From: a virus
IMG/VR virus record: IMGVR_UViG_3300027852_000160
Location: 1-24,961 of that record
Length of the DNA: 24,961 nucleotides
Direction: 5' to 3' (one strand)
The notes beneath the pieces are model-generated. The model ran no database searches. It worked only from the letters and a program-made list of their open reading frames with translations, and was not told where the DNA came from. The translations under genes were made by a program, and so were the position numbers. Position 1 is the stretch's first letter, and the number at the start of each line of letters is the position of its first letter. Positions 2,550 to 6,716 of this stretch are shown one piece after another.

Positions 2550-2975
2550 TTAATTACGGTTAGTTGTGAGTTCGTTAAGATCGACATCAAAATCCATATC
2601 TGGGATGATCGTTTGAGGCCGAAACATAACACGGTAGTGAAAAGTTGATACGTCAACGTTTTCAAGTTGTTCAGCAAAGAATGTCACGTTATCTGACAGC
2701 CCTAGAAAATGTTTCTTAAAGCTGTTTGGACCTGTTTTGCAGGTGACGGAAAGTTGCCCAGTGCTATCGAAGTTACCAAGGGAGCAAAGCCCCTCTACGG
2801 ATAGGATGTAAGCATCGGTGATACCGTTGTAAAAGACAACGCGACGATTAACCTCGAAATTATCCGCCGCTTGGGATAAGTTACGCGACGCAACGTCTGC
2901 GGGTTTGGACATAGCCGACAAGGTAGTTATACCTATAGCTCCGGCAAGCATAAGAGGGACGAAGGTTTTTAACAT
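2550..2975 (-). CDS. Exported beta-sandwich protein of a phage lipoprotein family, without lipobox Cys
   Basis: Leftward gene of 141 residues starting MLKTFVPLMLAGAIGITTLS at 2975, with AAAGGAG 8 nt upstream. The longer frame to 3062 adds a sequence with no ribosome site. Residues 1-21 form a Sec signal peptide (Lys3, hydrophobic 5-19, likely cleavage after LSA). The mature part (RRVVFYNGITDAYILSVEG, later KKHFLGLSDNVTFF and YRVMFRPQTIIPD) matches my memory of a common phage beta-sandwich lipoprotein family. Members normally carry a Cys lipobox just before a DxADVAS-like stretch; here the stretch is MSKPADVAS with no Cys, so a soluble periplasmic protein is expected. Cys64 and Cys79 could form a disulfide. 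A role at the envelope (for example exclusion or lysis control) is a guess. Confidence 0.8.
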   Translation of the reverse strand: MLKTFVPLMLAGAIGITTLSAMSKPADVASRNLSQAADNFEVNRRVVFYNGITDAYILSVEGLCSLGNFDSTGQLSVTCKTGPNSFKKHFLGLSDNVTFFAEQLENVDVSTFHYRVMFRPQTIIPDMDFDVDLNELTTNRN

Positions 2976-3009
2976 AGTGGACTCCTTTCGGGAGGGTAGA
3001 GGGTTAATG

Positions 3010-3045
3010 AAAGTGGGCCACTTTGGTAATGGTGTGGCCCACTCG
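3010..3045 (-). terminator. Hairpin after the first four genes, likely terminator or attenuator
   Basis: A perfect 9-bp stem (GTGGGCCAC at 3013-3021 with GTGGCCCAC at 3034-3042) and 12-nt loop lie about 12 nt past the stop of the 59-aa gene. Read leftward it is followed by TTTCATT, a short T-run. It may partly terminate, lowering expression of the exported protein and the genes beyond, or stabilise a processed mRNA end. Confidence 0.55.
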
Positions 3046-3054
3046 CTTAGCCTT

Positions 3055-3234
3055 CTAGCCACGTTCCGTTAATGCTTCAATCGTTTCTAGCATTATTCGT
3101 TTAGCTTCAAGATATTCATCCTCAATAGTTTTGAAATTGGAAGGGTCACCTGAACCCTTCCAAGCTTCTTCGAAACAAGCTATTTCAAACCGTTTGAGAG
3201 CTTTCATAGTACTAGCTCGGTTCGGATTTCTCAT
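3055..3234 (-). CDS. Hypothetical phage protein, 59 aa
   Basis: Leftward gene of 59 residues from the ATG at 3234, which shares an ATGA overlap with the stop of the HTH-like gene; a GAGG site is 7 nt upstream. A GTG at 3240 or an ATG at 3207 (MKALKRFEIA) are alternative starts. The protein is a helical, charged chain (FEEAWKGSGDPSNFKTIEDE, then LEAKRIMLETIEALTERG). No family recognised. It is followed by the 3010-3045 hairpin, so it closes the promoter-proximal group of four genes. Confidence 0.7.
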   Translation of the reverse strand: MRNPNRASTMKALKRFEIACFEEAWKGSGDPSNFKTIEDEYLEAKRIMLETIEALTERG

Positions 3235-3476
3235 ACCCACGCCTCGATTAGGTTGGGCACTTCCGGCTCTATGCGGTGCATGTTGTTCACCGAGTCCGGT
3301 AGCACGCGAGCACGAAGTGAGTTGGATGTGCGCAAGGCGTAGTGAACTTGGTGATAGCGTAAACCCGTTACCCGAACTAGGTCGGTGCGGGATAGTTCCC
3401 CCGAGGGTGCGGCGTTAAGTGCGCGCCAGATCATGAAGCGGTGTGCCTCGCGGGTGATTTTGTGAACGGTTTTCAT
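3231..3476 (-). CDS. Small HTH-like DNA-binding protein, 81 aa, possible regulator
   Basis: Leftward gene of 81 residues starting MKTVHKITREAHRFMIWRAL. Residues 12-50 fit a helix-turn-helix or winged-helix pattern: helix 12-22, helix 28-37 (SRTDLVRVTG), turn, recognition-type helix 39-50 (LRYHQVHYALRT), then a basic SLRARVLP. The protein is basic overall. The ATG overlaps the stop of the upstream 86-aa gene and its own stop overlaps the next start, so it sits in a coupled chain near the promoter, a common place for phage regulators. It is a candidate to bind the repeats in the control regions, but this is inference; the HTH call is by eye. Confidence 0.65.
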   Translation of the reverse strand: MKTVHKITREAHRFMIWRALNAAPSGELSRTDLVRVTGLRYHQVHYALRTSNSLRARVLPDSVNNMHRIEPEVPNLIEAWV

Positions 3477-4045: not shown

Positions 4046-4118
4046 TGATTTAGGTGAGTGTGTGTATGGCCGATTAAAGGGTTTTGGCGGGGCAAGGTGT
4101 CTGGTGTTTGCTGTGTTG

Positions 4119-4168
4119 CTGGTGCGGATTTTGACATACCATGCGTATTTAGGGAATGTATGGCCAGT
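4119..4168 (+). repeat. 50-bp inverted element, right-facing copy
   Basis: It starts CTGGTGCGGATTTT and ends TGTATGGCCAGT; both end blocks are identical in the left-facing copy at 4375-4326, and the 24-bp middle matches at 14 positions, giving 40 of 50 without gaps. It includes TTGACA at 4131-4136, but no fair -10 follows at 16-18 bp. Confidence 0.75.
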
Positions 4169-4191
4169 GGGGTGAGGGTCCAGTGGGGGTG

Positions 4192-4225
4192 TTTTTTAAC
4201 CAAATGGTAAAAAAAAAAAAAAAAA
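4192..4225. other. AT tract: T6, short dyad, A17
   Basis: T6 (4192-4197), ACCA/TGGT (4199-4202 and 4205-4208) and seventeen A residues (4209-4225), lying between the two 50-bp inverted elements. A homopolymer this long is rare in a genome of about 50% GC. It could ease strand opening or promote polymerase slippage. It is not a normal terminator on either strand, because no adequate stem precedes the T-run in the reading direction. Confidence 0.6.
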
Positions 4226-4290: not shown

Positions 4291-4321
4291 TATGGATCGT
4301 CCCCCATGGGGATAGGCCATA
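4291..4321. repeat. 31-bp palindromic element, copy A
   Basis: TATGG at one end, CCATA at the other and CCCCATGGGG in the centre. Its reverse complement matches copy B (6033-6063) at 26 of 31 positions without gaps. It abuts the left-facing 50-bp element. Dyad symmetry suggests a dimeric protein site or an extruded hairpin. Confidence 0.75.
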
Positions 4322-4325
4322 CCTA

Positions 4326-4375
4326 ACTGGCCATACAATCCCCAATCCCGCCTTGTGCGTTAAAATCCGCACCAG
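4326..4375 (-). repeat. 50-bp inverted element, left-facing copy
   Basis: Partner of 4119-4168 in opposite orientation, 40/50 identical, separated from it by 157 bases. Read leftward it runs directly into the 31-bp palindrome and then toward the 3942-1 operon, so a regulatory role for that operon is possible. Confidence 0.75.
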
Positions 4376-4542
4376 ACACACAGGCGACATCAGCCCAACG
4401 GGGCATGATTTGGCGGGATTGGCGGGGGAAGGGACTGGATAGGATCGCCACACAAGCCGTGGGCGGGGGCAAGGACGGGCGAAAGGCGTGGTCGGGTGGT
4501 AACGGGCCGCCAAGCATTGAACCCGCGACGAGGCACGACAAA

Positions 4543-4564
4543 GGGCCACTCCGTAGAATGGCCC
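4543..4564. terminator. Weak hairpin, possible secondary leftward terminator
   Basis: GGGCCA (4543-4548) and TGGCCC (4559-4564) form a 6-bp stem with a 10-nt loop. Read leftward it is followed by TTTGTC, only a poor T-run. It could back up the strong terminator at 4756-4720 or be a structural element of the gene-free block. Confidence 0.3.
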
Positions 4565-4719
4565 AAACGTGAATTGCCTTACATTCTCAATTATCGCCAG
4601 AACACGTGGCAAGCCATACCGAGTATCACGGCCGCGACCAGACATCCGCCGAGTTTATAAAGGTCAAAAAGATAGGTGAAGGTATCGTGATCATAAATCA
4701 TAAGGGTGAATCCTTGTGT

Positions 4720-4756
4720 GAAAGAAGGGGCGCAACACCATGCCGCGCCCCTTTCG
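4720..4756 (-). terminator. Rho-independent terminator of the 5996-4762 operon
   Basis: Read leftward: GAAAGGGGCGC, an 11-nt loop, then GCGCCCC followed by TTCTTTC. The 7-bp all-G/C core pairs 4727-4733 with 4745-4751 and lies 11 bases past the stop of the 191-aa gene. It isolates this operon from the gene-free block. Confidence 0.8.
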
Positions 4757-4761
4757 GCGTC

Positions 4762-5337
4762 TTAAAGGCCAAGCTGGCCAAGATCAACAGACTCGGCTTG
4801 TGCTTTCATCGCGTCCAGTTCCTTCTGCGCTTGCACCAGAATGGACTCATTGGCCGCGATATACTTATCCAACGTGGCGACTTTCTCCCCCGTGTTCAAA
4901 CCCGTGTAAGCCTTGGCGTTCCCATCCCGCTTGACCAGCAAGCCCTTGATCAACACCGCCGCCAGTTGACGTGCCTTTGCCACCAACGGTGAAACCCCCG
5001 CGCCGCCGCCAGAACGCACCACGCCCCAGTCGCCATCCGCAAGACGATCCGCAACAAGCTGCATCATGTCCTTGCCCGTTTCCATGATGATTGCCCAATT
5101 GGACCCATCCCCCGTCCACTCCTTCACGTTGGCCTTGGACTTGAACTTCTCTTCCCCCAGTGCCGTTCTTGCCGCCGCTTGACTTGCACCCGCCGCCGCA
5201 TCCGCGATCTTTTGCGTAAGCCCGTGCAATACCGCCTTGACCAGAATAGACTCGTCAATCTTGCGTAGATCAAGATCAACTGATTTCGTGCGACTTTCAA
5301 CGGTGAGTGTGTCGGGAAGTGTAATCGTATATTCCAT
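4762..5337 (-). CDS. Phage protein of a common family of unknown function, 191 aa
   Basis: Leftward gene of 191 residues starting MEYTITLPDTLTVESRTKSV at 5337, with AAAGGA 9 nt upstream; the longer frame to 5382 has no ribosome site. It has a beta-like N-terminus (residues 1-25), then ILVKAVLHGLTQKIADAAAG (31-50), which I recall as the signature of a frequent family of phage proteins of unknown role (HGLxQKxxDAAxGA). Further on come a Gly-rich stretch at 109-115 and a C-terminal coiled-coil-like helix (about 153-184). It is followed at once by a strong terminator, so it is the last gene of its operon. The recalled family match was not searched. Confidence 0.8.
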   Translation of the reverse strand: MEYTITLPDTLTVESRTKSVDLDLRKIDESILVKAVLHGLTQKIADAAAGASQAAARTALGEEKFKSKANVKEWTGDGSNWAIIMETGKDMMQLVADRLADGDWGVVRSGGGAGVSPLVAKARQLAAVLIKGLLVKRDGNAKAYTGLNTGEKVATLDKYIAANESILVQAQKELDAMKAQAESVDLGQLGL

Positions 5338-5363
5338 GATATGTATTCCTTTATATATTTGAT

Positions 5364-5391
5364 GCGGGATTGCATCGCGCAATACCCCCGC
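5364..5391. other. Hairpin in the leader of the 191-aa gene
   Basis: GCGGG/CCCGC outer and ATTGC/GCAAT inner arms (5 bp each) around a 5-nt loop, between the 48-aa gene and the 191-aa gene. It could be an RNase processing site or translational control element; there is no T-run to make it a terminator. Confidence 0.4.
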
Positions 5392-5414
5392 AAGGGCACT
5401 GGCCGATATTATCC

Positions 5415-5561
5415 TTATTTACGTGACTCAACTACTTTCATCGCCTTTTGCAAATAGGTGTGGCAAGCGTTGTATTCTTTCCCCGAAAGGTTTCCATCTT
5501 CTTTCAACAAGTATTCCGCAGTATCCTTAACAATCTTTAACGCGGTTAGGTAGTTCATCAT
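5415..5561 (-). CDS. Hypothetical phage protein, 48 aa
   Basis: Leftward gene of 48 residues, too short for usual callers. It has two adjacent start ATGs (5561, 5558) with AAGGAA 6-9 nt upstream. The sequence MMNYLTALKIVKDTAEYLLK continues as a charged, mainly helical peptide ending MKVVESRK. Stop-to-start distance from the upstream 58-aa gene is 8 nt. Natural composition and a clear ribosome site support it; no family recognised. Confidence 0.65.
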   Translation of the reverse strand: MMNYLTALKIVKDTAEYLLKEDGNLSGKEYNACHTYLQKAMKVVESRK

Positions 5562-5569
5562 CCGATTCC

Positions 5570-5746
5570 TTATCTCTTGGACAACACAAGAAAATGTCCA
5601 TTGCCAAGATCGTCACTCGTGAAATAGTCTACCGTCCAAGGACTCCGAACCATAGTGACGTTTAATTGCACCGCAAGGGACGCAAAAGCATCTTGGGGTA
5701 TTTTGATCAAACCTTCATAGTTTTCATCATGTATAAAATAGTTCAT
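5570..5746 (-). CDS. Hypothetical phage protein, 58 aa
   Basis: Leftward gene of 58 residues starting MNYFIHDENYEGLIKIPQDA, with AAGGAG 9 nt before the ATG at 5746. It looks like a small alpha/beta protein with an amphipathic middle (DAFASLAVQLNVTMV) and a C-terminal strand HFLVLSKR. Its start overlaps (ATGA) the stop of the possible 40-aa gene upstream. No known family. Confidence 0.7.
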   Translation of the reverse strand: MNYFIHDENYEGLIKIPQDAFASLAVQLNVTMVRSPWTVDYFTSDDLGNGHFLVLSKR

Positions 5747-5865
5747 CGTATAGACTCCTTATCCCTTGGGGCAACATCGCCCACATGTATCCTTGCACAT
5801 CCCGCCCTTGCTTGCAAGCATTCATTTGAGTCTTTGTCGTTTTTCTTCCCGCCATCCCCACTCAT
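5743..5865 (-). CDS. Possible 40-aa mini-gene, Lys/Asp-rich
   Basis: Leftward frame of 40 residues, MSGDGGKKNDKDSNECLQAR and then a part with Cys16 and Cys23, very polar. It is joined on both sides by ATGA overlaps: its start uses the stop of the 44-aa frame and its stop uses the start of the 58-aa gene. That double coupling is the main argument for reality; its own ribosome site is weak. The same frame is open back to 6066 (107 residues), but the longer form has no ribosome site. Function unknown; it might be non-coding leader instead. Confidence 0.4.
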   Translation of the reverse strand: MSGDGGKKNDKDSNECLQARAGCARIHVGDVAPRDKESIR

Positions 5866-5996
5866 CCCCGTGCATCCCGTGGCCAGAGTCGGGGGGTCAT
5901 GCTTACCCACTGGCCCACCCCCACTTCGACGCATGCCCCCCTCATGTGCGCGGGAATACCCCTGAAAATAGTTGAGTTTATTTTCATCCTTGCCAT
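5862..5996 (-). CDS. Possible 44-aa mini-gene, first of the 5996-4762 operon
   Basis: Leftward frame of 44 residues starting MARMKINSTIFRGIPAHMRG. It has an almost ideal Shine-Dalgarno (AAGGAGG, 5 nt before the ATG), the best in the control region, and its stop overlaps the start of the 40-aa frame (ATGA). The product is basic with a Trp-containing beta-like middle (VEVGVGQWVSM). The region is GC-skewed and rich in GGGGATG words, so chance frames are a risk. No family recognised. Confidence 0.45.
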   Translation of the reverse strand: MARMKINSTIFRGIPAHMRGACVEVGVGQWVSMTPRLWPRDARG

Positions 5997-6032
5997 ACAG
6001 TCCTCCTTCCCTATCCACCTGTTCGAGGGATA

Positions 6033-6063
6033 TATGGCTCATCCCCACGGGGGACCGTCCATA
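6033..6063. repeat. 31-bp palindromic element, copy B
   Basis: TATGG ... CCCCACGGGG ... CCATA, 26/31 identical to the reverse complement of copy A at 4291-4321. It ends 16 bp before the -35 hexamer of the rightward promoter, a usual place for an activator or repressor site. Outside the 31 bp the similarity to copy A falls away. Confidence 0.75.
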
Positions 6064-6079
6064 CATGGGCCAAAACCGC

Positions 6080-6108
6080 TTGACTCGCGCCCGCCCGCGT
6101 GGTAGCCT
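6080..6108 (+). promoter_or_regulatory. Rightward promoter of the morphogenesis operon
   Basis: -35 TTGACT (6080-6085), a 17-bp spacer and -10 TAGCCT (6103-6108) preceded by TGG, an extended -10. The predicted start is near 6115, just before the first gene at 6138. The -10 is weak, so activation through the adjacent palindrome is plausible. A similar CTTG...TGGTAG layout recurs at 10103-10131. Confidence 0.55.
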
Positions 6109-6137: not shown

Positions 6138-6716
6138 ATGAACCAAGCAGACCTCGAACTTTCTATCGCAGGCAAACGAGCGGAGCCGCTCACGGCAAGC
6201 TACCTCCGAGACCTCGACGACGCCGACCTCCTAACCCGAGACCTGCCGAAACAGACCAAGCCAGTGCCGATCAAGAAAATCCGCGCCAACCATCGGCAAC
6301 TCGCCAAGTACGTCGCCAGTGGGATTAAGCAATCCGAGGCGGCCATTCTCTGCGGCCTGACCGATAGCCGCGTCAGCATCCTCATGGGTGATCCCATGTT
6401 CAAACAACTTGTCGGCATGTACGCGAAAGAAATCGACGACCAGTTTGTAACCATGAATGCGAAGATGGCAACTCTTGGCGAAGACGTGCTCGACAACATC
6501 TCAGAGAAGTTCGAGGACGATCCAGACTCATTCTCCCTTTCCGACCAGATGGCTTTGCTGAAAATGACAGCCGACCGGACTGGGAATGGTCCCGCCACCT
6601 CAGCCCCGAGTGTGAATGTGAACATCGGGATTGCTGAGAGGATGGAGTCGGCTCGCCTTAGGGTGGATGCCAACCGTATGCGCGATGTGACCCCCTCGAA
6701 AGAGGCTGCGGAATGA
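6138..6716 (+). CDS. terS: Terminase small subunit
   Basis: 192 residues from the ATG at 6138 (MNQADLELSIAGKRAEPL), with GGAG 8 nt upstream; the frame back to 6099 has no ribosome site. It recognises phage DNA and feeds it to the large terminase. Support: HTH-type region at about residues 48-90 (HRQLAKYVASGIKQSEAAIL, then CGLTDSRVSILM), a helical middle for oligomerisation (100-150), a disordered basic C-terminus, and position directly before the large terminase with ATGA overlap. Small terminases vary greatly, so the call rests on HTH plus context. It is the first gene of the rightward operon. Confidence 0.8.
   Translation: MNQADLELSIAGKRAEPLTASYLRDLDDADLLTRDLPKQTKPVPIKKIRANHRQLAKYVASGIKQSEAAILCGLTDSRVSILMGDPMFKQLVGMYAKEIDDQFVTMNAKMATLGEDVLDNISEKFEDDPDSFSLSDQMALLKMTADRTGNGPATSAPSVNVNIGIAERMESARLRVDANRMRDVTPSKEAAE

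Follow-up and report, generated by a model that had tools for sequence, protein, structure and literature searches.

Many copies of one site spread over a genome, often at stop or start codons, are known from mycobacteriophage L5, a temperate phage whose stoperators are short, asymmetric sites for its repressor. In plasmid RK2, the ParB-family clamp KorB has several dispersed OB sites near promoters. In the ParB-parS and Noc-NBS systems, base recognition has been traced to single residues, with R173 of Caulobacter ParB contacting parS G1 and the Q at that position of Noc reading NBS A1 (Jalal et al. 2020, PMC7383237). According to the accessible parts of two reports, fusions of a ParB-CTPase fold to an N6_N4 methyltransferase (PF02195 + PF01555) are frequent in phages (PMC12704722) and the ParB-methylase of B. 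cereus nicks DNA (PMC5512222); these parts describe no role for the phage fusions and name no cognate DNA site. The element analysed here consists of two 31-bp palindromes, sites A and B, in a 24,961-base virus record of IMG/VR (IMGVR_UViG_3300027852_000160, positions 1 to 24,961, referred to throughout as the window), which, judging from sequence comparisons, are probably parS-like binding sites of a phage ParB-methyltransferase.

As in ParB and Noc, the candidate reader combines a ParB_N domain carrying GERR and ENxxR motifs with a helix-turn-helix (HTH), the site is palindromic with half-sites of similar length, and the pairing of R with G and of Q with A recurs at the residue equivalent to ParB R173 and Noc Q158. 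In contrast to these systems, the phage site has an odd inner dyad (7-1-7) enclosed by an invariant TATGG/CCATA frame, the phage fusion adds a methyltransferase, no ParA was found among 21 relatives' records, and the site sequence varies from phage to phage. What the phage system shares with KorB-OB is a clamp of the ParB family, putative in the phages, whose several sites are spread out close to promoters, and KorB is among the structural matches of the fusion, whereas KorB is without a methyltransferase and no KorA-like partner was identified in the phages. The domain set is that of the phage fusions covered by the accessible literature, to which a candidate site family and a residue-to-base rule are added here. 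Scattered copies are also numerous in L5, but here each copy is a 31-bp dyad, and no tyrosine integrase was detected in the phages. The parts are of known kinds, and as far as found in the open-access literature the composite site, the phage-wide layout and the protein-site code are new. They offer a first candidate target for phage ParB-methyltransferase fusions, in the form of a family of sites, rules for their placement and a rule linking residue to base, for which a single protein and a single oligonucleotide would suffice as a test, and dozens of protein-site pairs provide a natural experiment on the diversification of ParB/Noc recognition.

The 31-bp sites and their family in related phages

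The window is probably a fragment of a larger phage genome. Its TerL is epsilon15-like (~45% identity), and after it come genes for portal, capsid, tail and internal-virion proteins; the family of sites described below is scattered through an uncultured group of bacterial viruses, and no record resembling the window at the DNA level was found in INPHARED. Site A (TATGGCCTATCCCCATGGGGGACGATCCATA, 4291-4321, minus strand) and site B (TATGGCTCATCCCCACGGGGGACCGTCCATA, 6033-6063, plus strand) lie in inverted orientation and are identical at 26 of 31 positions without gaps, with background identity beyond their ends, as described in a first-pass annotation of this sequence. They are the top-ranking inverted 31-mer pair of the window, and their joint pattern was found twice in the window and in none of 100 dinucleotide shuffles. 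Both have TATGG/CCATA ends and the centre TCCCC-AY-GGGGGA, and each is an imperfect dyad in which 20 of 31 positions equal their own reverse complement (10 of 15 pairs). Within this frame, the inner 7-1-7 dyads at 4299-4313 (site A, minus strand) and 6041-6055 (site B, ATCCCCA-C-GGGGGAC, plus strand) are the proposed contacts of a ParB-type HTH, on the basis of helix covariation across phages.

A scan of IMG/VR with the whole dyad returned only two more contigs, L005 and L006, the latter a true relative (TerL 60%) with a site at the same place as in the window. Eighty TerL relatives, amounting to 1.09 Mb, were fetched for spacing counts, and in this set TATGG-N21-CCATA occurred in 37 copies in 29 loci, against about 1 expected and 0 exact-end sites in a Markov control; the other spacings from 0 to 60 gave 0-4 copies each, except N7 with 13. 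Because the N21 spacing stands out, the conserved element was taken to be the outer frame and its spacing and not the CCCC..GGGG; the central CCCC-NN-GGGG highlighted in the first-pass annotation is present in the window and was rejected as the element, being common in IMG/VR only to the window, L005 and L006. The TATGG/CCATA ends, reported alongside it, extend to the whole family, and both conservation in relatives and frequency by chance, which that annotation had named as decisive, came out in favour of the element.

Sixteen of the 27 longer relatives (34-51 kb, searched whole) carried 1-6 exact copies each, and three lacking exact ends (G010, G011 and G004) kept the 31-bp frame, its ends being TATGTA or TATGCC. 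Between 2 and 6 copies are usual in a genome that has the site. The outer TATGG/CCATA is nearly invariant, enriched between genes and, in G010 and G004, of flipped orientation with respect to the inner dyad. That dyad, a 7-1-7 arrangement of the inner 15 bp, is common to the sites within one phage and different between phages, with half-sites such as TATGTCA (G005), TATAAAC (G027), GTTCAAC (G012) and CTTTACA (G021); the half-site RTCCCCA is found in the window and in L009, with a near variant, TTCCCC, in L006. Both the family and this within-phage sharing were established computationally. In an unbiased search for repeated 31-bp dyads these sites ranked first in most site-bearing genomes, and Markov controls of those genomes gave 0-3 matches. 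Such sites were not found in the cultured phages AF, Kuura and Tiera, which share TerL or polymerase, or in GTDB loci L147-L163; L146 held one pair.

A palindrome may also act as a hairpin, in RNA or in extruded DNA, for example as a processing signal or as a hairpin promoter of the N4 type. Each site is foldable, among four relatives tested two gave better folds than shuffles (z -3.3 and -3.8), and shorter TATGG-N7-CCATA palindromes of 17 bp exist too. Nevertheless, the two window sites fold no better than shuffles (z -0.9 and -1.2), mismatches at the junction are constant, and arm pairing was 6.2/10 within a site against 7.0/10 between sites of the same phage (p=0.002), contrary to a hairpin. 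The search for covariance between the arms that had been suggested for the 31-bp pattern recovered a conserved frame with arms that do not compensate within single sites; since the arms pair no better within than between sites, this argues for half-sites that are read independently as DNA contacts. No large non-structural open reading frame (ORF) of the size of a single-subunit RNA polymerase was seen in three fully listed relatives, which lends no support to a phage RNA polymerase promoter. The hairpin promoters considered in the first-pass annotation find no support in these results, and a hairpin function of any kind is very improbable.

The 17-bp TATGG-N7-CCATA palindromes, in which the outer ends occur alone, were distributed over 9 loci (13 in total), some of them at the TerS position of other phages' 31-bp site; examples were located in L012 (6620 and 6635), L021 (9356), L024 (564), L030 (5933), L044 (several) and L060 (4242).

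A ParB-methyltransferase fusion as candidate reader

A PF02195 (ParB_N) protein, one per genome, was found in 20 of 21 relatives' records in which the replication module was covered, and its gene sits in that module. It is a ParB_N-HTH-N6/N4 methyltransferase fusion, with PF02195 and PF01555 in one protein (Pfam, one protein scanned). The sequence set, assembled from two scans, in each of which the best 80 of about 480-560 relatives were kept, and from five earlier genomes, comprised 132 sequences. The cytidine triphosphate (CTP)-binding motifs GERR and ENxxR and a DFPYG-type catalytic motif were near-invariant (130-132 of 132 proteins; DFPYG-type, 132/132), and the profile of the fusion aligned both to Noc, Spo0J and ParB structures and to DpnA/M1.HpyAVI. 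An AlphaFold model (pLDDT 84) matched M.BceJIV, M1.HpyAVI, CcrM, Noc-NBS and KorB, its C-terminal part matching methyltransferases. Mean entropy was 2.6 bits in the HTH recognition helix as against 1.4 in the ParB_N and methyltransferase domains, and the linker was even more variable. The earlier suggestion that the palindromes are sites of a phage regulator is borne out in so far as the data point to a dimeric protein of the phage that binds DNA. The fusion is the candidate for it, and not the HTH-like ORF at 3231-3476 that had been suggested for gel-shift tests, which has no family support and only a sub-threshold PHROG match.

A ParB_N-HTH protein with dyad sites, one of them near an origin-like poly-A region, could also belong to a partition (centromere) system like plasmid ParABS. 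However, ParA (PF13614) was found in 0 of 21 relatives' records and tyrosine integrase (PF00589) in 0 of 15, with the control positive in 14/14 genomes for both and serine recombinases not searched, and a methyltransferase follows the HTH. A C-terminal ParB dimerisation domain was likewise not found, Pfam giving only ParB_N and the N6/N4 methyltransferase for the one protein scanned. A temperate-phage reading based on a tyrosine integrase was rejected given the absence of PF00589 from the 15 records; with neither ParA nor tyrosine integrase, plasmid-style partition and integrase-based lysogeny are therefore unlikely. The system was classed apart from ParABS on the ground that searches for ParA and for the dimerisation domain found neither, and a centromere role is regarded as extremely improbable.

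At least one 31-bp site lay on the same DNA stretch in 73 of the 132 sequences (57 of the 73 non-identical), and 44 of 70 loci of 12-30 kb had a site (56 sites, against 1-3 in Markov controls). Helix distance correlated with half-site distance after removal of whole-protein distance (partial Mantel r=0.19, p=0.0015, 41 phages), the recognition helix was the best among 204 windows in a scan of the fusion, and four of the top five column-position pairs by mutual information fell within it. Raw mutual information was rejected as sole proof, as control proteins score equally high, and because of these high scores, a consequence of shared ancestry, a test on disjoint nearest pairs was used. In 28 such pairs helix and site were correlated (Spearman 0.54, p=0.003; partial 0.44, p=0.016) and the two HTH helices were among the top three of 419 windows. 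Where helix residue 2 was identical the base at half-site position 2 was identical in 7/7 pairs, and where it differed the base differed in 15/21 (same/different test p=0.0014). Q at helix residue 2 went with A at half-site position 2 (0.93, n=14), R with G (0.59, n=11) and other residues mostly with T; Fisher's test for Q/R against A/G in the disjoint-pair analysis gave 7e-5, a value that ignores relatedness. Covariation between helix and site was in this way established by computation. A whole-protein Mantel test on up to 15 phages gave 1 of 24 families below 0.05 (helicase, p=0.04), which is chance level, with too few similar pairs.

Alignment to Noc puts helix residue 2 at the position of ParB R173 and Noc Q158, and the rule of Q with A and R with G matches the rule measured there (PMC7383237); it was derived from the phage data before this comparison, so that the agreement was not built in. 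The L009 helix, STTKLSIRL, has T at position 2, in agreement with the T at position 2 of the RTCCCCA half-site, and we infer that the window sites and the L009 fusion belong to the same system.

Alternatively, the sites could be operators at which a phage-encoded repressor or activator unrelated to the fusion, for example of the small HTH or ribbon-helix-helix type, times the early and late operons, with the link to the fusion arising from shared ancestry. The sites precede operons and lie near sigma-70-like promoters, and TATGG, which is invariant, could be read by a 62-residue ribbon-helix-helix-like protein that has a conserved strand and was found in every covered relative. This protein cannot explain the variable inner dyad because its strand is conserved, and it shows no association with the half-site. 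Such an association is seen for the ParB helix, in disjoint pairs too, and it follows the known pairing of R with G and Q with A; operators of this kind are accordingly considered unlikely. The 62-residue protein, encoded at 10325-10513 in L090 with orthologues in 19 other relatives, has a conserved KHTLNL strand, was classed as ribbon-helix-helix-like by eye and gave no Pfam or PHROG family.

Several observations weigh against the fusion as reader. Its gene lies outside the window fragment, the ParB HTH alone does not explain the outer TATGG, and 26 of the 70 fusion loci of 12-30 kb had no site by the criteria used. Relatedness inflates the covariation, and the Sak4, Cas4 and Pol controls also score high in mutual information. 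At the strongest thinning (23 phages), the helix gave p=0.019 but some methyltransferase windows were slightly higher, and a small out-of-sample set gave three fits and one exception to the pairing of Q with A (a TQ..SQRR helix with T), an exception type that L211 shows as well (TQ..SQRR helix). With these points weighed, the sequence comparisons support a phage-specific ParB-type HTH that would recognise the inner dyad in sites spread over the starts of modules.

Placement along the genomes and possible mode of action

The sites recur in divergent phages at the same junctions, as mapped computationally: before TerS, at the end of the portal or capsid gene, between the ParB-methyltransferase gene and UDG, between UvrD and c37 (12 of 14 relatives, among those listed) and near a poly-A tract beside c12. 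The place of site A, between c12 and the poly-A tract, recurs in L006, L014, L030 and L060, and TerS is preceded by a site, as in the window, in L011, L019, L051, L052, L055, L059, L064, L065, L070 and L075. In eight phages (G021, G022, G018, G010, G006, G017, G012 and G015) a site lies within the ~1350-residue internal virion gene, at nucleotides 602-647 and in the same frame; phages without this in-gene site have one instead at the junction of the internal virion and tail-fibre genes. The peptides across the in-gene site vary between phages, and the constraint there is therefore on DNA. A sigma-70-like promoter usually lies downstream of the TerS sites at a varying distance of 0 to ~56 nucleotides (by eye). 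As for KorB, the sites are near promoters of several operons, here at module starts, the promoter in the window being weak.

This placement also bears on the proposal, made in the first-pass annotation, that the sites bound a gene cassette. Mobile-cassette boundaries or recombination sites around the leftward c12 operon would agree with the position of c12, which is flanked by two sites in the window and L052 and by one site of 31 bp and one of 17 bp in L060 and L030, and with the leftward orientation of the next called ORF past the portal-end site in L022, L031 and L072. Against such boundaries, the same operon junctions are used in divergent phages regardless of the content between the sites, eight phages have a site inside coding sequence at a conserved place and frame, tyrosine integrase was not found, and no independent insertions exactly bounded by sites were seen in otherwise identical phages. 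The cassette proposal was consequently abandoned as having next to no likelihood.

For the ParB-methyltransferase fusion, the proposed mechanism is that its HTH would read the inner dyad RTCCCCA-Y-GGGGGAY, and that, as the recognition helix diversifies and the site follows, each phage would acquire its own inner sequence. A dimer docking on the scattered sites would be brought in cis to the phage's own DNA and might there be a methylating and/or KorB-like regulatory clamp at transcription-unit starts, possibly CTP-dependent like ParB, Noc and KorB (PMC11790492). Proposed targets would be the late operon before TerS, the replication operon before c37, the capsid genes and the origin-like region, and the outer TATGG/CCATA may be the methylation target, or may be bound by a conserved part of the fusion or by a second conserved protein. 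That the fusion binds the sites, forms a clamp, methylates DNA and regulates transcription is inferred, and cis delivery of a methylating and/or KorB-like clamp, the favoured mode of action, is, taken alone, somewhat less likely than not. If the clamp reading holds, it would give a virus a way to methylate its own genome in cis.

A more specific version casts the sites as entry points of a methyltransferase that slides along DNA. A DNA methylase carried by a ParB-type CTP clamp would gain access only at phage-specific parS-like sites and would, while sliding, methylate the phage genome in cis, marking the DNA of the virus and not that of the host. TATGG/CCATA would then be a local mark or docking element, and rapid change of the inner dyad would bar co-infecting phages from each other's marker. 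This set of claims, taken jointly, is rather doubtful.

Features and genes around the window sites

Ahead of TerS, a weak sigma-70-like promoter, TTGACT-17-TAGCCT (6080-6108, plus strand), begins 16 nucleotides after site B. This distance is the one given in the first-pass annotation; the promoter's -10 element matches at only 3/6 positions, and a consensus scan did not report it. The probable TerS (6138-6716, plus strand), first gene of the late operon, clusters with the gene preceding TerL in 51 relatives. The inverted element earlier described as 50 bp is present and is actually a 73-nucleotide, 75% inverted repeat that surrounds the poly-A tract and site A, with its left arm at 4101-4173 (plus strand) and its right arm at 4321-4393 (minus strand).

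The poly-A tract itself (A17, 4209-4225, plus strand) lies in a region resembling a replication origin. In most relatives there is just one poly-A/T tract of at least 11, flanked by TATGG half-sites and adjoining c12, usually with a 31-bp site; examples besides the window are L006 (1098-1110), L014 (5476-5487), L030, L031, L060, L032, L078 and L088. The A residues are on the TerL strand in the relatives checked, and the records G012 and G015 begin and end within the tract.

The window ORF at 2550-3062 strongly matched PHROG 478, 'recombination directionality factor' (E 4e-48), a label that may mislead, as no tyrosine integrase was found in the relatives. Between sites A and B lies c12 (4762-5337, minus strand), a conserved leftward ORF of ~190 residues that forms a cluster of 23 loci; its model was confident (pLDDT 92) without a known fold match, and c12 was rejected as a DNA-binding protein in view of the lack of any Pfam, PHROG or fold match. 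No INPHARED homologue of c37 (L009, 15105-15623) was found by tblastn. Both are conserved early proteins whose genes each adjoin a site, and by eye c12 and c37 are distantly alike.

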